From Verrucomicrobiia bacterium (GTDB lineage: Bacteria > Verrucomicrobiota > Verrucomicrobiia > Verrucomicrobiales > Akkermansiaceae), in contig JAUIGV010000009.1 in assembly GCA_030432565.1 (NCBI GenBank), forward strand, positions 124,001-188,000: 64,000 nt of DNA, in the 5' to 3' direction. The first letter of the stretch is position 1; the number at the start of each line of letters is the position of its first letter. Positions 1 to 38,012 of the stretch are shown here, piece after piece. Made by a program: the position numbers and the translations under genes. The notes under the pieces were generated by a model that saw only the letters and a list, made by a program, of their open reading frames with translations, ran no database searches and had not been told where the DNA came from.

Positions 1-2150
1 GTGGTGTAGTAGAGATCACCATCGGTATGAGTGATGAGCAGTGGAAAGTCGGAGGGAATCTCTCCGCCGTTCTGATTGAATTCAGGAGCAGCAGTATCCG
101 GAAGAAAGCCAGCTGAACGCATTTGTCCCAGCACGATATCGGTGCGTGATACCGCATTGACATCGACAATCCAATCGACATAAGTCTGGAATAAGGCGGG
201 AGTGTAAAGTTGCTGCGCTTTGGTGCCCCATCTGGCTGACTCGGGAATAATCGTTCTGGATACTCTTTCCGCCAATTCGGTGATGTCCGATTGAACCCTT
301 TCTTGGGTGAGCATTCCACCATTGTAGAAATGCTTTTGGACGCGATCGGCAACCCGGGTTTTGAATTCCGGAAGCCTGATGAGGGTGCTCCACATGTTGC
401 CGGGACCACCGTTGTCTGTGGTATTTGCGGGCGAGGGGGTCGTCGAATTCCCGCCGCGACGAATGAGAAAGTCATTGTCCCACATGAAGAAGTTGAACTT
501 TCCTCCGTCCACCCGCCTGCGTCCCGCGACCCAGTTGTGTTGAGGATACCAATCGTGGTCATTTCCTCCGTAGAAGTTGAGGAGCATGTAGTCGATGTAG
601 CTATCGATGTTCATGTAGTCCTTCACGACTTCATAATTGTTCCTGTTCGCATTGAGAAAATTCCAGGCCGTGCCTTCGCCTTGGGAAACGAAGATGCCGC
701 TGCGGCCCTTCATAATGTCATATTCCTCCTCTTCCCCGCCGAGATGGGTTGCCATGAAATCGGCGTTGGGTCTCTCCATGAGGTGATGCTGGCCGTAGTA
801 AGTGCCGTTTAAATAGACGTGAACAAATTTACCTCTCATGGAAAGATGGCCGGCTTCGAGCTGGCGATCAAAGAAGTAACGATTGCGAAAATAAACTCCC
901 CGTGAATGAGAGTAATTGGTCGCGAAGAGGGAATCGTGACTTCCGTTTCGCAGAAGGATTTGATCAAAGCTTTCAACGGCGGTATCGCCCCCGTAGGGAG
1001 TGTCGCTGAATAGGTCGAATTTCAGCTTTTTCTTGCCATAGATTTCCTTGAAGCTGATGCGAAGCGCGTGCTTGTCATAAACGGTGTATTGCCCGCCAAA
1101 ACGTTCGGCTCCGGCGTCGAGCTGGAAGCCGTCGCGTCCATCCGGGAAGATCATCTCGATGGAGACCGGAATCTCCGGAGGGCTCATAATGGGCTGGGTT
1201 GGGATTGCTTCCTGGGTGACCAATGAAATTGTAGGAATCTCAAGAAGGGCATCGCGCATTTGCGGTCCCCAAACCGGGTGTTCGGTCACTGAAGTGGCCA
1301 TGGCCGGATTGCTGATGACCTCATCAAGGAAAAAGTAGGACTGGGTATCGGTGTTGGTCTTTTGAAATCCGGGTTTGGCAGCGTAGGCACGTACGATTGT
1401 GGTGGTGCCAACCTCCAATGAGAGAACGGGCGGACTGTTCGGATCCGGAGCGTCAACAGACGGGCTGGTCGGACCGGGATCCGATCCATCAGTGGTGTAG
1501 TAAATTGAAGCACCCGGAGTTGCCGAGGTGACTTCGAGTTGAAACGGCTCATCGAAGAAACCTCGCTTATGGCTAAACGAAGTATCTTTTACAAAGCCAA
1601 GGATCGAGTCGTTGTTCGCTTTGCCCGGAGTTGGAGTGGTGAAGTAGGCCGGTTCGGTTTGACCTGTGGCAATTCCAAAGGAGACATCGGTGAACTGTTC
1701 CGGGTAAGCGGGTGTAAAAGCCTGTTGGGCCATCTCTCCCTGTGGATTGACCAAGGCAAGAAACTCACCATCCTGACTCAGGCTGAAATTGGTGTGGAGC
1801 TCCTCGGCCGGATTGCGGAGGTCTTGCCCGCTGGCATAAATTAGAAGGTATCCTCCGGCCGGGATCGAAACGCCGGAAGGGAAACTCCATTTATCGAGGC
1901 TTCCTGCATTGTCGGAGAGGCTCCAACCGTCCAAATCGACACTTGCTGTGCCGGGATTATAGAGCTCGATCCAGTCCGGGCTCTCGCCATTATCGAGGAC
2001 GAGAGTTTCATCGTTGCCCGCCATGAACTCGCTGATGATGGGGGCTTCCTGTCCGTGTGCGAGGGCTCCGCCCACCAAGCAAACAAGGGTGGCGAGGTTC
2101 CGCGTTCGGTCGCGTGAAGGGCGGGCGGGGTCAGGAGACTTTTTGTGCAT
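1..2150 (-). CDS. Lamin-tail / CotH-kinase-like surface protein (partial, 3' end outside window)
   Basis: The reverse strand is open from an ATG at 2150 to the window edge, about 716 codons with no stop, so the C-terminus is missing. The N-terminus has a basic stretch and a hydrophobic segment ending in AHGQ, which looks like a signal peptide. Residues about 35-130 match a lamin-tail domain (ISEFMAGN, SPDWIELYNP, LDGWSLSDN). Next comes a chitobiase-C-terminal-like segment (YYTTDGSDPGP). A CotH-type domain follows (LRNGSHDS, GVYFRNRYF, HVYLNGTYYGQHHLMERP, FFMWDNDF). The last visible residues again look like the start of a TDGDLYYTT repeat. In Verrucomicrobiota and Planctomycetota such proteins are secreted or surface-attached; the CotH fold is kinase-like, but the substrate here is unknown. 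No clear Shine-Dalgarno sequence is visible. The family call is firm, the role is inferred. Confidence 0.85.
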   Translation of the reverse strand, partial: MHKKSPDPARPSRDRTRNLATLVCLVGGALAHGQEAPIISEFMAGNDETLVLDNGESPDWIELYNPGTASVDLDGWSLSDNAGSLDKWSFPSGVSIPAGGYLLIYASGQDLRNPAEELHTNFSLSQDGEFLALVNPQGEMAQQAFTPAYPEQFTDVSFGIATGQTEPAYFTTPTPGKANNDSILGFVKDTSFSHKRGFFDEPFQLEVTSATPGASIYYTTDGSDPGPTSPSVDAPDPNSPPVLSLEVGTTTIVRAYAAKPGFQKTNTDTQSYFFLDEVISNPAMATSVTEHPVWGPQMRDALLEIPTISLVTQEAIPTQPIMSPPEIPVSIEMIFPDGRDGFQLDAGAERFGGQYTVYDKHALRISFKEIYGKKKLKFDLFSDTPYGGDTAVESFDQILLRNGSHDSLFATNYSHSRGVYFRNRYFFDRQLEAGHLSMRGKFVHVYLNGTYYGQHHLMERPNADFMATHLGGEEEEYDIMKGRSGIFVSQGEGTAWNFLNANRNNYEVVKDYMNIDSYIDYMLLNFYGGNDHDWYPQHNWVAGRRRVDGGKFNFFMWDNDFLIRRGGNSTTPSPANTTDNGGPGNMWSTLIRLPEFKTRVADRVQKHFYNGGMLTQERVQSDITELAERVSRTIIPESARWGTKAQQLYTPALFQTYVDWIVDVNAVSRTDIVLGQMRSAGFLPDTAAPEFNQNGGEIPSDFPLLITHTDGDLYYT

Positions 2151-2282: not shown

Positions 2283-2311
2283 AATAAAAAAGGCCACCCG
2301 AAGGTGACCTT
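2283..2311 (-). terminator. Rho-independent terminator with UUCG tetraloop
   Basis: On the minus strand a 9-bp stem (AAGGTCACC pairing with GGTGGCCTT, one G-U) is closed by a TTCG loop and followed by a T-rich tract. It lies about 25 nt after the TAA at 2337 and about 215 nt after the in-frame TGA at 2526. It therefore marks the distal TAA as the gene end. Confidence 0.8.
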
Positions 2312-2336: not shown

Positions 2337-3104
2337 TTAATCGGTATCCTCGGACATCGCGAGGACCTTGTCGTTACTGGCACCGGTCTTGATGATTTCG
2401 CCGTTCACCTTGAGATGAACCACGAGGCCAAGAAGCTTGTCTCGATATTTGCTCTTGCCGCCTTTCACCATGATCGGAGGCTGGTTGAATGTTCCCCACA
2501 GACCGTAGGGATCTTCGGTGAAACATCATCCACCGCCGCCGCCGGTGGGCATCACGGGATTATCGCTCCACGATTCCAGATTGGCGCTCTTGGTCGTGAT
2601 CGTTTCGGTCCCGTTGGAAAGAACCAGATCAATGGTGTCGGAACCGCTGACTTTTTCGATCTTGTTTTGATATTCACGGCGATTGCGCTCGATAAAGAAG
2701 GTATACTCGACCGTCACATCCTTCAGCATCTCGTCGCGCTTGTTCTCAACGGTGACGATGTAGTTATGATCGTATTTTTCGAAATACCACTGACCCTGGG
2801 CGGGCTTGTTTTTTTCGGTTCGCTTACTGTAATGCTTGGTCTCAATCGAGAGCGCTTTTTTGGCCTGAACAATCGGACCTTGCTCCTCAACATACTTCTG
2901 GTCTTCCTTTGAGAGGACATCGATTGAGAAGGTGAGAACTTTCCCTCGTGCCATGCGCATCTTTGCTTTCTTTGTCGATGACTCATACTCAATGAGTTCA
3001 CCGCGGAAGGTCTTTTGACCATCCTTGCTGGTGTAGGTGCGCATCTCTCCAAACACCGCAGTGACGAGGAGGCACGCAATTAGCAATAACTGTCGTAACT
3101 TCAT
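2337..3104 (-). CDS. SHD1-like secreted protein with in-frame TGA; candidate selenoprotein
   Basis: The start is ATG at 3104, which gives a signal peptide (MKLRQLLLIACLLVTAVFGE). Residues about 20-75 resemble the SLA1-homology (SHD1) domain common in PVC secreted proteins (TYTSKDGQKTFRGEL, FSIDVLSKEDQKYV). A middle region about residues 90-185 is predicted beta-rich and unassigned. The frame then reads PTGGGGG and meets TGA at 2526-2528 (codon 193). The same frame continues TGT TTC (Cys-Phe) and runs 62 codons (EDPYGLWGTFNQPP, LLGLVVHLKVNGEI) to TAA at 2337. If TGA is read as selenocysteine the protein has 255 residues with a vicinal Sec-Cys pair after a flexible Gly run; if not, a 192-residue protein results. 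A SECIS-like hairpin follows the TGA, the terminator follows the TAA, and selA is encoded at 36.6 kb. A TGG-to-TGA mutation or base error is the main alternative. Confidence 0.55.
2493..2511 (-). promoter_or_regulatory. Candidate bacterial SECIS hairpin downstream of in-frame TGA
   Basis: Counting from the base after TGA, nt 15-33 on the minus strand fold into a 7-bp stem (U-A, three C-G, U-G, A-U, C-G) with apical loop GGUCU at nt 22-26. Bacterial SECIS elements lie immediately 3' of the Sec UGA and present a G-U in a small apical loop to SelB; E. coli fdhF has GGUC at about nt 19-22. The bulged U of the E. coli hairpin is not visible here. The fold was derived by eye. Confidence 0.5.
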
Positions 3105-3185: not shown

Positions 3186-5684
<2,499 letters not shown>

Positions 5685-5800
5685 AATGGAGTTACGGACG
5701 TTATTACGCCCCGCACTCTGCCGCCATTTCAAAAACCGTCCCGTAAAGAAAGGATTCTTATTTTTAGGCTCAGTCAGCAGGGAAGGTGGCCCCCCGCTTT

Positions 5801-8800
5801 CTATTTGTGTCCCTCGTCGGTCTTGTCTTTCTTGCAGGAAACGAGGAAGGCCACGAGGTCGCGGGCTTCTTGTTTGCTGAGGAGGGCGGTCATCGGTGGC
5901 ATGGCTGAAACCGGGGTGCTCTTCTTGGCAATGTCCGATTTCTTGATGATTTTGGTGGTTTCGGCGAAGTTTATCACGGCATTCCCGTCCTTATCGTCAG
6001 GCATGAAGTTTCCGCTGATTTCGGTGCCATCTTTCAGGGTGATGGTGCCGAGACCGTATCCGTCGGCGACTTCCGCTCCTGGATTGACGAGGGAGCGGAG
6101 GAGGTAAGTGGCATCGTGCTTTTTGCCGATGGCTCCGAGCTCGGGGCCGACGTCGCCCCCGACTCCGTGCATGGTGTGGCAACGCTGGCACTGCGCGGCT
6201 CCGTGTTCGTAAAAGACCTTCTTGCCAAGCTGAATATCTCCGCCGTCACGGCAGAGAAGATTCCACTCGGCGTTGGGATCGTCCTTGGCGAGTGAGGCGC
6301 GGAATTGATCAAGCGGGAGGCCGGCCTTTTCGGCGGCGGTGACGATGTCAAGGGCGAGACCGGAGTCCGCGTTTCGAGCGATCAGTTGGTCAAGGGCTGC
6401 CTGAATCATTTCCTTCGCTTTGGGTGTTTTAAGTTTGGTTAGGGTCTCCAGAGTGAGTTGTTTTTCTTTCAAGGTGGCCTCCTGACTGGAGAGGAGATTT
6501 CCGAGCTGCGCGGTGGCGCGGTCGGGGTCGACCTTGAAGAGAAGTTCACGTGCCATGCTGCGGACCTTGTCGCTTTTGTCGGTGAAGAGATCTTCAAGAC
6601 GTGAGGCCCACATGGCGTCATCTTTTTTCAGAGGGGCGAGGAGGGAGAGTGCCTTCACTCTGGTTTCCTCGGAGCATTTATCGCTTTTGAGATAGCGGAC
6701 CAAGCGGAACTCGCCGACCGGAATGTTGTCTTGTTCGGAGAGAGTGAGGGCGCGGGAGAGAAGTTTGATCGAATTTTCGTCCTGCCCGCCGAGGAGATCT
6801 CCAAGACTAGGGAGGATGGACGCGTCCAGCTTGATACGGTTGTCAGGAAGAGTTCGGGCAAAGCCGGTGACGGGATCGGGGACGGGCGGATTGTTCCACT
6901 CCATGAGGGCGATGAGGGCGTCCTTGCGAACGCGGAAGTCGAGGCCGGAATCGGAGGCAATTTGAGCGATCCTTTCGGCATCTTCTTTTTGTCCCAGAAC
7001 CCAGGCCGCAAAGATGGCGCGGCGCGCGGTGAGCGGATGCCATTTGATCTCCGGTGTGACTCGTTTGGCGATTTCGTGAGCCATGACTGAGAGAGCGGGG
7101 TAGGTCTCGCGGATGTCCATTTCATAGGCGGCCCGAATGGCTTCTTGGCGGACGAGTTCATCGGTGTCTCGGAAGAAGTGCTGGAGTAGAGGTGATTTCT
7201 GACGTCGAAGGGCTACCACAATTGCCCGACGGACTGCATTTTGATGAGTCTTCCCTGCTTCAACGAGCGTCGGAGATTCGGCACATTTTGCAAGAATCAT
7301 GATGCCGGCGTGGCGGACGACGACGTCCTTGTCGTTGTTCTTTTCAAGCATCGCGAGAGCCGGGGCGATGGCGTCCTTGTGGCCGTAGTTTGCGAGGGCG
7401 ATGGCGGCGAGGGAGGCCACGCGGGGCGAGGAATCCTCAAGCATGGCGATGAGGGCTTTTCGGAAGGGTGCAAGGTGTTTGCCGTGATTACCGAGAGTGC
7501 GGGCAAGATTGGCACGGACTTCCATTTCCTGGTCTCCGATCAGACTGGTGAGGGAGTTGAGCGCGGATGGGTTTTTCTGACCAAGCTGGCCGATGCCCCA
7601 GATTCCGTGGATGCGTCGCATGAGTGGCTGGTCTGGCTTGGTCGCCTTTTCAAGGAGTGGAAGTGAGTTGAGCTCCTGCTCGGCGAGGGCGAATTGACTC
7701 CGCAGGCGGACCCGTTGGTCGGGATGCGCGAGGAGGTCAAAGAGTTTGCCTGGTTCAAGGGATCGAATGCCTTTGGCAAAGATCTCCTTTACTTCTCTGA
7801 TTGCAGGGGTCTTGAGCTTTTCGGTGTCGGCGAGGGTGTAAACATTGCCCTTGCCGGATTTGGTCCAGCCGCCGCCGTAGTCGGCAATGTAGAGCTTGCC
7901 ATCGTAACCCCAGTCGAGGTCGGTGAGGGCGATTCCTTTGAGGAAGTTGGTCTGCTCGCCAAGTTTAAAATTTGCTCCTTCGGGGTTGAGGGTAAAGCGT
8001 TCGATGAGGCAGCGGTCGGGGCCGGCCACGTAGCTGGCAAAGAAGAAGTTGCGGTCGAATTTTTCGGGAAGTCCGACGATGCCGGGATTGTAGGCAAGCC
8101 CGCACGGTCCGTTCGCACTATAGGCGATGGGTGGGTTGATGTATGCGGGTTGGCGGTCGTGCCGGGTGTTCCAGAGACCTTCGTTCATCCACGCGTCAAT
8201 GTGATCTTCTTTGCGGGGAGGTTTTCCGCCGATATGGTTGTAAACGGTGCCACCAAAGGAGGTCATGGTTTGGTGCCCCATTTTCCAACCGGAGTCGCCG
8301 TGCTCGACGAGGTAAACAATACGCTCGCGGTCCCCTTGGTCGTAGTCGTTGTCGACCGTGAAGAGATTGCCGAATTCATCAAAGACGATCTCCTTGGGGT
8401 TGCGGAGGTTGATGTAAAATTCCTCGAACTCCGAGCCGTCGGGGTTGGCCCGGAAAACGCCGCCGGAATCGGGGCGCGCGAAGGTTTTGCCGTCTTGCTC
8501 GACATGATATCCGCGGTCGCCGATGGACCAGTAGATCTTGCCGTCGGGTCCCCAGGCGAAGCCATTGAGATCGTGGCCGGAGAAGCTGACGCGCACCCCG
8601 AAGCCGTTGACCAGGGTTTTGACCTCCTCGGCTTTCCCGTCGTTGTTGGTGTCCTTGAGGCTGTAAATCCCGGGAATCATCGCGAAGTAAACAGTGCCGT
8701 CTTTTTCGATGAGGCCACCGGAAGGGCCCGCGAGCGGATCGTTGAAGTCGCCGCGAAAAACGGTGGTTTTGTCCGAGACTCCGTCGCCATCGGTGTCCTC

Positions 8801-9181
8801 AAGCATTTTGATGACTTCGGAATCCTTCGTGAATTCCTCCCACGTCAGGAAGTCCTGTCCCTTGCCGGACCATTTTTGGTGGAAGGCGGTGCGGTCCTCG
8901 AGGGTCATGGAGGAAATGTCTCCGTTTACGCGGTCGCGCAGGAATTTCCCCCCGTGGCGGATGTCCTGAACCTGGACGCGCCAGCGATTGGTTTCAGCAA
9001 TGTAGACGCGGTTTTGGGCGTCGAGGCAGATCGCGGTGGCGTTCTGGACCTGGTTCTGGTCGGCGAAGCGCTTGAGTGTCAGCCCCTCGGGAATGGTGAT
9101 TTTCTTGTCGAGCTGGGAAGGGACGAGCTGGGCACCAAGGGGAAGGATGGCGGAGAGTGAAAGAAGAAGTGTGCGTGGCAT
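5801..9181 (-). CDS. PVC-type haem-binding CxxCH protein, long form
   Basis: ATG at 9181 gives a signal peptide (MPRTLLLSLSAILPLGAQ); 1126 residues. The order is an N-terminal propeller of the membrane-bound-dehydrogenase type (residues about 40-470; NATAICLDAQNRVYIAETNRWR, split by EDTDGDGVSDKTTVF and KDTNNDGKAEEVKT calcium-loop-like insertions), a long HEAT-repeat region (about 480-950) and a C-terminal cytochrome c domain with CQRCH near residue 998 and an SAMPPMTALL distal-ligand segment. It probably acts in the periplasm as a haem-containing dehydrogenase or electron-transfer scaffold; the substrate is unknown. It precedes the shorter PVC cytochrome on the same strand, about 115 bp apart, so the two may be co-transcribed. 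It diverges from the gene at 9274 across a 92-bp gap that must hold promoters for both. Confidence 0.85.
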   Translation of the reverse strand: MPRTLLLSLSAILPLGAQLVPSQLDKKITIPEGLTLKRFADQNQVQNATAICLDAQNRVYIAETNRWRVQVQDIRHGGKFLRDRVNGDISSMTLEDRTAFHQKWSGKGQDFLTWEEFTKDSEVIKMLEDTDGDGVSDKTTVFRGDFNDPLAGPSGGLIEKDGTVYFAMIPGIYSLKDTNNDGKAEEVKTLVNGFGVRVSFSGHDLNGFAWGPDGKIYWSIGDRGYHVEQDGKTFARPDSGGVFRANPDGSEFEEFYINLRNPKEIVFDEFGNLFTVDNDYDQGDRERIVYLVEHGDSGWKMGHQTMTSFGGTVYNHIGGKPPRKEDHIDAWMNEGLWNTRHDRQPAYINPPIAYSANGPCGLAYNPGIVGLPEKFDRNFFFASYVAGPDRCLIERFTLNPEGANFKLGEQTNFLKGIALTDLDWGYDGKLYIADYGGGWTKSGKGNVYTLADTEKLKTPAIREVKEIFAKGIRSLEPGKLFDLLAHPDQRVRLRSQFALAEQELNSLPLLEKATKPDQPLMRRIHGIWGIGQLGQKNPSALNSLTSLIGDQEMEVRANLARTLGNHGKHLAPFRKALIAMLEDSSPRVASLAAIALANYGHKDAIAPALAMLEKNNDKDVVVRHAGIMILAKCAESPTLVEAGKTHQNAVRRAIVVALRRQKSPLLQHFFRDTDELVRQEAIRAAYEMDIRETYPALSVMAHEIAKRVTPEIKWHPLTARRAIFAAWVLGQKEDAERIAQIASDSGLDFRVRKDALIALMEWNNPPVPDPVTGFARTLPDNRIKLDASILPSLGDLLGGQDENSIKLLSRALTLSEQDNIPVGEFRLVRYLKSDKCSEETRVKALSLLAPLKKDDAMWASRLEDLFTDKSDKVRSMARELLFKVDPDRATAQLGNLLSSQEATLKEKQLTLETLTKLKTPKAKEMIQAALDQLIARNADSGLALDIVTAAEKAGLPLDQFRASLAKDDPNAEWNLLCRDGGDIQLGKKVFYEHGAAQCQRCHTMHGVGGDVGPELGAIGKKHDATYLLRSLVNPGAEVADGYGLGTITLKDGTEISGNFMPDDKDGNAVINFAETTKIIKKSDIAKKSTPVSAMPPMTALLSKQEARDLVAFLVSCKKDKTDEGHK

Positions 9182-9273
9182 GGCTTTTTCGGAGCGTAAG
9201 CTACGGAAGGCGGGCTTGGGAAGTTTCAAGGGAGCTTGACAAGTGGTTGGGTCGTCCGTGGAGTGGCGGGGTC

Positions 9274-35628: not shown

Positions 35629-36582
35629 ATGGAACTGCTTGAATTTGAAAAGCCAATCGCCGAATTGGAGAAGGAAATGGACTTGCTCCAGAACAAATCC
35701 CGATCGCAAAACATTGACCTCAGTGCGGAAATTTCGGCAATCGAAGGGAAACTGGTGGAAACCCGTCGCCATATCTACGAGAATCTCACTCCGTGGCAGC
35801 GCGTTCAAATTGCCCGTCACACCAAGCGTCCCTACATGTTGGATTATATTGCCAGAGCATTCACCGATTTTTCCGAGTTACACGGCGATCGCATCGTAGG
35901 CGACGATCATGCCATGCCGGGAGGGTTTGCCACCATCGACGGCCAAAAATGTGTTGTGATCGGTCACCAAAAAGGGCGTGATCTTAAAGAAAATCTCAAG
36001 CGCAACTTCGGAAGCGCGCATCCCGAGGGATATCGCAAGAGCCTACGCCTAATGGAGTTGGCCGATAAATTCTCATTGCCCATCGTGGCGCTCATCGATA
36101 CCCCCGGAGCCTTTCCCGGTATTGGGGCCGAGGAACGAAACATTGCTGAGGCCATCGCCCGCAATCTCCGCGAAATGATGTTGCTCGAAGTTCCCGTTGT
36201 CGCGGTCGTGCTGGGTGAGGGTGGCTCCGGTGGGGCTTTGGGAATCGGCGTGGCCGATAGAGTCCTCATGATGGAGAACGCCTACTATTCGGTGATTAGT
36301 CCCGAAGGTTGTGCCGCGATTCTCTGGAAGCACCGCAAGCACGCGCCCGAGGCTGCGGATGCCATGAAAATCGCCGCTCCGGATCTTGCCAGGCTGGGCC
36401 TGATCGATGGCGTGATTCCCGAGGTCCCGGGAGGCGCTCACCACGATCCCGATGCCGCCGCTGATGCTCTGCGCGAAATCGTTTCCAAGAATCTCAAAGA
36501 GCTTTTGGCGCTTTCAAAGAAGGATCTTAAAGCCAAACGCTACGAGAAATTCCGTCGCTTTGGCGAGTGGGGGCAAATTTAG
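35629..36582 (+). CDS. accA: Acetyl-CoA carboxylase carboxyltransferase subunit alpha
   Basis: 317 residues, the usual length. Family signatures are visible: LEFEKPIAELEKEMDLLQNK, GDRIVGDDHAMPGGFATIDG, HPEGYRKSLRLMELADKF, LIDTPGAFPGIGAEERN, GEGGSGGALGIGVADRVLM and YYSVISPEGCAAILWK. With AccD it transfers CO2 from biotin to acetyl-CoA, the first step of fatty acid synthesis. Its stop codon overlaps that of the convergent selA gene within TTAG at 36579-36582. Confidence 0.97.
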   Translation: MELLEFEKPIAELEKEMDLLQNKSRSQNIDLSAEISAIEGKLVETRRHIYENLTPWQRVQIARHTKRPYMLDYIARAFTDFSELHGDRIVGDDHAMPGGFATIDGQKCVVIGHQKGRDLKENLKRNFGSAHPEGYRKSLRLMELADKFSLPIVALIDTPGAFPGIGAEERNIAEAIARNLREMMLLEVPVVAVVLGEGGSGGALGIGVADRVLMMENAYYSVISPEGCAAILWKHRKHAPEAADAMKIAAPDLARLGLIDGVIPEVPGGAHHDPDAAADALREIVSKNLKELLALSKKDLKAKRYEKFRRFGEWGQI

Positions 36583-37952
36583 GCCAGGGCTGCTTCCAGA
36601 GCTGTTTGAACCTGTCCATCGGTCTCAGGAAAAATAGTCCGAAGATCGAGGTAAAGCGCGTCGTCGGTTGTGTAGCCGACGATCGCCGTTGCTCCGAGAC
36701 GGAGTTTACTAGCGAGTTTCGGCACCGATTGGGTCTTTGGCGCCAGCTTGATCGCGATGGAAGGGAATTCGCTCCGGGGCATTGTTCCGCCGCCGGGGCG
36801 GGCGGTGGTTTCTTCGATGGAGATCTTTGTGTGCTCGGTGCCAAGGTTCGCGATGATCTGTTCGGCGCGCTGTCGGAGCTCATCAACTGAAGTGCGGAGA
36901 AACTTCAAGACAGGGACATCGGCCTTTGTAGGATCCGCTTTCGTTTCGAGATACTGATCGATCGATTCCTGCAAGGTGGTCAGGATGAGCTTGTCGCAGC
37001 GGACAGCCCGAAAAAAGGGTTCTTTTTTGATCTTTGCCACCAAGTCGGCACGGCCTCCGATGATCCCGGATTGCGGGCCGCCAAGGAGTTTGTCCCCGGA
37101 AAAAATGACGAGATCGATGCCGCGACGCAGGCATTCCTGGGGAGTCGGCTCGTGTTCGATTGGTGCCAGTTCTTCGGTATTCATCATCGCTCCCGAGCCA
37201 AGGTCTTCAACGAGCGGAAGCCCGTGGTCGTGGGCCAATCTGGCAATCTCAGGGATTTCGGGTTCGCCGGTGAAACCATCAATGTAGAAGTTCGAACGGT
37301 GGACTTTGAGAATGAGCGCGGTTTGAGGCGTGATCGCTTTTTCGTAATCGTAAAGGTGCGTTTTATTGGTCGCTCCCACCTCCACGAGCTTCGCTCCGGA
37401 GGTTTCAAGAATTTCCGGAATCCGGAATCCGCCACCGATTTCCACGAGCTCGGATCGTGAAACGATGACTTCGTTTTTCCCTTCTTCGACGAGAGTCCGC
37501 AAGGTAAGCACGAGGGCGGCGGCGCAATTGTTGACGGCGGTCGCGGCTTCGGTTTCGAGCAGACAGGCGAGGGCGGTTTCGAGATAGCCGGCCCGTTTCC
37601 CGCGAGCGCCGGAGGGGAGATCAAACTCCAGGTTCGAGTAGCCGGTCGCAATTTTTTCAAGAGCTTTCGCGGCGCGCGGACCCAGCGGTGAGCGTCCGAG
37701 GTTGGTGTGAATGAGGACGCCGGTGGCATTGATGACGGGTTGGAGCCTTGAGTTGGCAAACTCGATCAATCCCTGTCTGGTCGCTTTCTCGATCTCTTCC
37801 CGGTTATGGTCCCCACCGGCGAGGAGGAGCTGGCGGAAGCGGTCGATTTCCCGGCGTACAAAGAGATTGACCAACGGTCGCGGAAGCGACACCTCCCGGG
37901 CAAGTGAAGAGGCCAGTTTTTCGACGGAGGGAAGGGCGGCGAGGTTACTCAT
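36579..37952 (-). CDS. selA: L-seryl-tRNA(Sec) selenium transferase
   Basis: 457 residues from ATG 37952, or 463 from ATG 37970, the length of E. coli SelA. Signatures are NATGVLIHTNLGRSPLG, the NNCAAALVL block, SRSELVEIGGGFRIPEI, VGATNKTHLYDY, KVHRSNFYIDGFTG and the PLP-binding lysine in FSGDKLLGGPQSG. It converts Ser-tRNA(Sec) to Sec-tRNA(Sec) using selenophosphate. This shows that the organism very likely decodes some UGA codons as selenocysteine; selB, selC and selD are not in this window. It may be co-transcribed with the CvfB-like gene 60 bp upstream. Confidence 0.95.
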   Translation of the reverse strand: MSNLAALPSVEKLASSLAREVSLPRPLVNLFVRREIDRFRQLLLAGGDHNREEIEKATRQGLIEFANSRLQPVINATGVLIHTNLGRSPLGPRAAKALEKIATGYSNLEFDLPSGARGKRAGYLETALACLLETEAATAVNNCAAALVLTLRTLVEEGKNEVIVSRSELVEIGGGFRIPEILETSGAKLVEVGATNKTHLYDYEKAITPQTALILKVHRSNFYIDGFTGEPEIPEIARLAHDHGLPLVEDLGSGAMMNTEELAPIEHEPTPQECLRRGIDLVIFSGDKLLGGPQSGIIGGRADLVAKIKKEPFFRAVRCDKLILTTLQESIDQYLETKADPTKADVPVLKFLRTSVDELRQRAEQIIANLGTEHTKISIEETTARPGGGTMPRSEFPSIAIKLAPKTQSVPKLASKLRLGATAIVGYTTDDALYLDLRTIFPETDGQVQTALEAALA

Positions 37953-38012
37953 ATTCTTGAGGAGGATCATGGTGCCGGATCGCTCACGGGTAAAGCCGGA
38001 GTCTGCTCCAAC

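Follow-up and report, generated by a model that had tools for sequence, protein, structure and literature searches.

The window, i.e. the whole stretch of 64,000 nucleotides analysed here, carries on its minus strand a gene whose reading frame is interrupted by a single TGA. The main features of the gene are:

2337 to 3104, minus strand: predicted selenoprotein coding sequence of 255 residues with Sec193, from ATG (3104-3102) to the stop TAA (2337-2339), based on frame, orthologues and selection
2526 to 2528, minus strand: TGA, codon 193, the putative Sec codon, kept in 9 orthologues and, among 76 distinct full-length proteins of the family, in 55
2290 to 2311, minus strand: terminator-like hairpin 3' of the TAA, 9 pairs followed by TTTTATT

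Directly upstream and in the same direction are two large cytochrome-c proteins (3186-5732 and 5801-9229, minus strand), one of them with DUF7133 and HEAT repeats, and downstream is a CotH-type protein with a lamin tail domain (3-2150, minus strand), which runs off the edge of the window. As to a hint at the substrate, no cluster of neighbours was present in more than two of eleven 9-kb regions, and genes with the CxxCH heme motif were recognised nearby, by eye, in 2 of the 11. The scan used for terminators detected no promoter-like site on the strand of the gene, and a search of the 64-kb window with Rfam at gathering scores returned one ordinary tRNA and nothing else.

Codons 1-192 end in five glycine codons, the TGA follows, and the frame continues with Cys-Phe through 62 sense codons (194-255) between the TGA and the TAA; both the coordinates and the Cys-Phe start given in an earlier note on this DNA are borne out by the translation. 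That note had also placed the terminator after the TAA and not after the TGA. The hairpin at 2311-2290 agrees with this placement. Another terminator-like match, at 2548-2530, covers the glycine codons directly before the TGA and has a poorer tail (ATGATGTTTC). Given that the same scan found four terminator-like matches against 1.3 (sd 1.2) expected, the match at 2548-2530 is no proof either way. It would suit a protein that ends at the TGA, with the frame downstream left by chance or decayed, and so would the length of the frame, as an open run of 62 codons after a stop is expected by chance in about one case in twenty ((1-3/64)^62, about 5%, assuming equal codon use) and is thus by itself weak evidence.

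Orthologues are more informative on this point. Nine close orthologues, with identities of 69-100% and including the one of the own genome, were found in 58 genomes searched, and each of the nine matches spans the site with exactly one TGA inside. Distant full-length members also have a TGA in the same glycine-rich place when their best matches are read in frame; L022 and L023 were listed without a stop, their matches having stopped short of the TGA. Taxonomy was recorded for six loci, which belong to metagenome assemblies of Verrucomicrobiota, Akkermansiaceae or Verrucomicrobiales. A one-off sequencing error is untenable, since nine assemblies of the genus share the TGA and distant homologues have it too.

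Comparison of the eight full-length orthologues gave a pN/pS of 0.116 for codons 194-255 versus 0.147 for codons 1-192, and the variable sites of the extension are mostly at third positions (12, 7 and 39 for the three codon positions). The extension is under purifying selection, and on the strength of this selection and of the conservation of the site chance readthrough and a pseudogene are rejected. The silent sites are unevenly distributed, pS being 0.059 in codons 194-206, 0.51 in codons 207-255 and 0.58 upstream of the TGA; that they are frozen only in the 39 nt past the TGA fits the prediction of an overlapping SECIS element. The low pN/pS, the frozen silent sites past the TGA, the distant homologues which keep both the TGA and the strands following it, and the Cys forms described below, which read straight through, all argue against a protein ending at the TGA, for which we see hardly any chance.

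In order to define the breadth of the family 288 genomes of the order Verrucomicrobiales were searched with a 15-member profile, 40 further stretches were taken and the loci were read in frame. Homologues within the order with only 17-29% identity keep the TGA in the glycine-rich loop; of the 76 distinct full-length proteins examined 55 have Sec and 21 lack it. Out of these 21, six carry Cys at the aligned place (L072, L083, L085, L086, L087 and L088; the alignment is clear for L072 and less certain for the other five) and fifteen carry neither. The earlier note had proposed an inspection of codon 193 in homologues, and TGA or Cys was indeed found there; no protein among the 76 has Trp at this site. 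The first 58 genomes had suggested a family existing only with Sec, which is ruled out by the Cys forms. In a tree of 74 rows the Cys form L072 is sister to the Sec form L019 with support of 99/97, and the three states of the site need 6 changes as compared to 19.6 in shuffles; the Sec form L118 groups, with weak support, with non-Sec members, which counts against the present reading of the gene. A paralogue clade (L080, L081, L082 and L084), present in genomes both with and without SelB, has the Sec loop replaced by a short segment devoid of Cys and Sec. A search of 194 genomes of the phylum with a 30-row profile (E<=1e-15) matched 14 genomes, and among the matches listed a TGA was present in the window's own gene only, so that all Sec forms known from this analysis are from the order Verrucomicrobiales.

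The genes for selenocysteine insertion, of which the earlier note had named selB, selC and selD for checking, are all present in the own genome, and selA is present too. The tRNA-Sec scores 54.4 bits (cut-off 47) and is called by ARAGORN as SeC with anticodon tca, SelB scores 315.6 bits, and selD (L137, G000:C73:16415-17344) has one in-frame TGA, for which reason SelD is probably itself a selenoprotein. The selA gene lies within the window:

36579 to 37970, minus strand: selA, L-seryl-tRNA(Sec) selenium transferase (TIGR00474, 489 bits; PF03841, E 1.4e-123), on the same contig as the gene described here

Co-occurrence was counted by hand on the matches listed by the searches for SelB and for the family and on the loci read in frame. 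A tRNA-Sec over cut-off was detected in 40 of 58 genomes among the matches listed, some of them at 47-50 bits in genomes that have no SelB, and because of these SelB was used for the co-occurrence. Among the matches listed, SelB is over cut-off in 43 of the 52 genomes with a verified Sec form, and it is found in all 34 of those which are at least 90% complete. The nine others (G005, G137, G183, G200, G205, G208, G232, G241 and G259) count against the association in being without SelB over cut-off among the matches listed, and their completeness is 54-85%. One genome (G250), with a partial TGA match, no SelB over cut-off and 58% completeness, was left out of the 52. Conversely, among the matches listed, five of the six Cys-form genomes are without SelB (G155, G266, G267, G274 and G299), the sixth (G124) having SelB and thus counting against, and no TGA form occurs in the 41 genomes at least 90% complete and without SelB. 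In two genomes (G077 and G189) the family gene is within about 2 kb of selB.

These data bear on the possibility that the UGA is read without selenium, either through suppression by an ordinary tRNA (that for Trp or another near-cognate one) or under an altered code, which would likewise conserve the frame. In the window TGA serves also as an ordinary stop, ending 9 of the 36 other large ORFs picked, and since in addition the residue replacing Sec is Cys, an altered code with UGA as Trp is rejected. The replacement by Cys in six proteins and by Trp in none of 76, the SelB in every near-complete Sec-form genome and a SECIS-like hairpin next to the UGA leave readthrough of this kind as very improbable, and favour decoding as selenocysteine.

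The hairpin and the stretch of frozen silent sites are located as follows:

2493 to 2511 (loop 2500-2504), minus strand: predicted SECIS apical hairpin, 7 bp with a GGUCU loop, -10.4 kcal/mol
2487 to 2525, minus strand: codons 194-206, silent sites nearly frozen

The five-nucleotide GGUCU loop begins 21 nt past the UGA, and the hairpin agrees with the bacterial SECIS model as set out in the available part of PMC13188914. The lowest-energy fold of the 40-nt stretch in the window is a longer alternative (-14.1 versus -10.4 kcal/mol), which counts against the hairpin; in L016 and L017 this alternative is broken by non-canonical pairs, and the fold of lowest energy there includes the GGUCU hairpin. 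Taking the best hairpin per site, and likewise for the background, a G[G/U] loop on a stem scoring at least 14 was found at 89% of 56 distinct TGA sites versus 4.8% of other codon positions in the same genes. This is a fairer control than shuffling of the arms, where 159 of 175 pairs formed against a shuffled mean of 79, a figure biased upwards, since the loop had been selected by its pairing. Among the hairpins that have an NGT loop (35 distinct ones), 31 form every one of the first five pairs, and each position shows three or more standard pair types. The four which lack some of these pairs are those at the first TGA of the two-TGA genes L028, L115 and L116 and the one of L114, and at four more sites, the first TGA of L019, L110 and L112 and the TGA of L077, an NGT loop is absent in the range. 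Two in-frame TGAs are present in L019, L028, L110, L112, L115 and L116, and in these genes a strong hairpin at the usual distance follows the second TGA only. The apical N-G-T is mostly one whole codon (27 of 35 distinct sites, including L018, L022, L023 and L030), and it encodes a Gly, Ser or Arg within motifs (GGRR, ASSR or RGSR, for example), so that protein and RNA signal use the same bases.

The domain structure of the protein, as predicted from its sequence and from a model, is the following:

3048 to 3104, minus strand: residues 1-19, probable signal peptide as judged by eye from the sequence
2877 to 3044, minus strand: predicted SH3-like (SHD1-like) barrel, residues 21-76, with weak PF03983 matches in 4 of 30 members and, in the model, strands at 21-60 and a helix at 66-84
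2556 to 2861, minus strand: predicted Ig-like beta-sandwich, main part, residues 82-183 (model; Z 11.4 to the Ig-like domain of a GH2 enzyme)
2454 to 2555, minus strand: glycine-rich mobile loop with Sec193-Cys194, residues 184-217 (pLDDT <50 over 185-217)
2373 to 2441, minus strand: final two sandwich strands, residues 222-244 (model)

The AlphaFold2 model was built from seven sequences (the window protein and L044-L049) and has a mean pLDDT of 65 and a pTM of 0.52. It shows a small barrel plus helix at residues 21-84, a beta-sandwich made up of residues 85-183 and 223-242, and between the two parts of the sandwich the Sec-bearing loop (185-217). Aligned by VIA-align to Ig-like domains of GH2 enzymes, residues 81-244 of this model of mean pLDDT 65 gave as best match a Z of 11.4 with an rmsd of 3.2 over 105 aligned residues. 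The Ig-like fold is a common one and shows no function. In this moderate-confidence model termination at the UGA would cost the protein its last two strands and leave the second domain incomplete. The label SHD1-like, used in the earlier note, is less well founded than it was put there: PF03983 misses the window protein at E<=1 and its gathering score is reached neither by this protein nor by the 30 members, but four of the 30 have weak matches, the best with E 0.0017. In a profile search of PDB sequences no solved relative was better than the SHD1 of yeast SLA1 (PF03983; PDB 2hbp), with E 0.08 for the N-terminal barrel; this likeness is below the Pfam cut-off and concerns the N-terminal third alone. 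The top Foldseek rows, arrestins, were discarded as relatives in view of TM-scores near 0.2 and rmsd values of about 20-30. Amuc_1102 of Akkermansia muciniphila (PDB 7dsz), from the same bacterial family, was matched with a Foldseek probability of 1.00 and E 8.6e-4; it differs in that the TM-score is 0.25-0.31 and the rmsd 8.9, the profile search of PDB sequences does not return it at E<=1, and no link to selenium was seen. Two members tried against PHROGs gave no match.

The vicinal Sec-Cys pair pointed out in the earlier note is present in the window protein, but it is one of several arrangements of the partner residue in the family. In 37 of 39 representatives the last Sec has a second Cys or Sec no more than eight residues away, as Cys at -5 (n=15), +1 (n=12), +5 (n=3), -1 (n=2) or -3 (n=1) or as Sec at -6 to -8 (n=4); of the remaining two, one has Sec at -10 and the other, L118, has no partner. 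Elsewhere after residue 20, Cys and Sec together account for 0.2% of positions (16 of 7560 residues). The case for a redox pair rests mainly on Sec being nearly always partnered while other thiols are almost absent; on the evidence of these residues a redox role is likely.

Thioredoxin reductase carries a C-terminal Gly-Cys-Sec-Gly arm. The likeness lies in a Sec beside a Cys on a flexible, glycine-flanked segment, and L023 and L074 even read G-C-U-G. The family differs by the absence of FAD and NADPH domains in Pfam searches, by an internal Sec (residue 193 of 255) and by another fold; the comparison with the reductase arm made in the earlier note needs correction in that the Sec is placed in a loop inside a predicted beta-sandwich and not on a C-terminal arm.

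The protein may be a selenoprotein in which the Sec-Cys loop is a site for a soft metal (copper, mercury or similar) and no catalytic redox pair. The loose position of the partner (-8 to +5) is what a flexible binding loop would allow, and several selenoproteins catalogued in the part of Table 1 of PMC13188914 available here bind metal. In contrast, the alignment of 30 rows shows neither a conserved His nor an additional Cys next to the pair, and no metal-transport gene was recognised by eye among the neighbours, though these observations do not decide the matter. We regard a metal site as unlikely, and prefer the redox pair.

The window protein has no NCBIfam family over cut-off, and its best Pfam match is Thy1 with E 0.11. 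For the 30 members the matches to Pfam and NCBIfam are scattered and weak, including the RimP SH3 domain in three, SHD1 in four and TraI_TIGR in one (3.5e-5). DUF1573 is a beta-sandwich domain. Its selenoprotein (PF07610, UGC motif), listed in Table 1 of the accessible part of PMC13188914, is also a predicted one with a Sec-Cys pair; it differs from the family described here, as PF07610 matches neither the window protein nor the 30 members and the Sec motif and the architecture are unlike. The TlpA and thioredoxin-like selenoproteins in the same table (UxxC or UGC), as far as its accessible part goes, resemble the family in being exported and of thiol-type redox chemistry, and differ by their thioredoxin domain, which is absent here. 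A combination of an SHD1-like domain with a thioredoxin fold occurs in L027, L032, L034, L035, L036, L037 and L038, whose active site contains an in-frame TGA (WUGPC; WUPPC in L032); going by their sequences, these fusions are a second kind of predicted exported selenoprotein in these bacteria.

The 2026 review PMC13188914 gives 119 selenoprotein families and subfamilies, and in the portion consulted none has the present architecture and the terms SHD1, SLA1 and Verrucomicrobi are absent from the text. None of the nine new families of PMC12013277 is the present one by name, and SHD1 goes unmentioned in PMC5029168 and PMC4807772, again within the available parts of these papers. Full-text searches for SHD1 together with selenocysteine found nothing, and those on selenoproteins or selenocysteine in Verrucomicrobia or Verrucomicrobiota, on selenoprotein families, on the SLA1 homology domain and on structure found no description of the family, in a literature whose coverage leaves most subscription papers and preprints outside. 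The family is undescribed in the sources searched, while the decoding of Sec is of the ordinary bacterial kind.

The reading as a selenoprotein made in the earlier note is thus supported by homologues with TGA or Cys, by selection on the extension and by the presence of selA, selB, selC and selD. Short of an experiment Sec at codon 193 is near certain; the parts needed for its insertion are seen in the sequence, from which we infer the insertion itself. The gene very probably encodes an exported selenoprotein of an undescribed family, in which a SECIS-directed Sec193 and its Cys neighbour form a redox pair, carried by a mobile loop of an SH3-like and Ig-like protein. SelB and tRNA-Sec would read the UGA at 2526-2528 as selenocysteine, directed by the SECIS hairpin that lies a short way downstream within the coding sequence. 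The product would be exported by its probable signal peptide, which is followed by the predicted SH3-like (SHD1-like) barrel and the Ig-like beta-sandwich, and would present the Sec and the adjacent Cys on the flexible loop of glycines that precedes the final two strands of the sandwich. Sec may make the nucleophilic attack and be resolved by the nearby Cys, or in some relatives by the second Sec, with a selenenylsulfide formed in a redox reaction of the periplasm or the cell surface, e.g. thiol-disulfide exchange or peroxide reduction.

With rather more reserve, and leaning slightly towards doubt, we suggest that this is an old family of exported Ig-fold selenoproteins across the Verrucomicrobiales, a redox enzyme on a non-thioredoxin scaffold, in which Sec is fixed on one glycine loop and the partner wanders (Cys at -5, -3, -1, +1 or +5, or Sec at -6 to -10), and that together with the WUGPC thioredoxin fusions it may form a selenium redox system of the outer cell.

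Selenoproteins are misannotated since the Sec codon resembles a stop, and in this case an annotation ending at the UGA drops the end of the second domain. The frozen silent sites are a clean footprint of a SECIS element within coding sequence, and a fixed Sec with a moving partner amounts to a natural experiment on the evolution of the selenenylsulfide pair. With Sec forms verified in 52 genomes, all from a single order, the family would add a non-thioredoxin scaffold to the catalogue of selenoproteins and would suggest that in these bacteria selenium chemistry takes place outside the cytoplasm.
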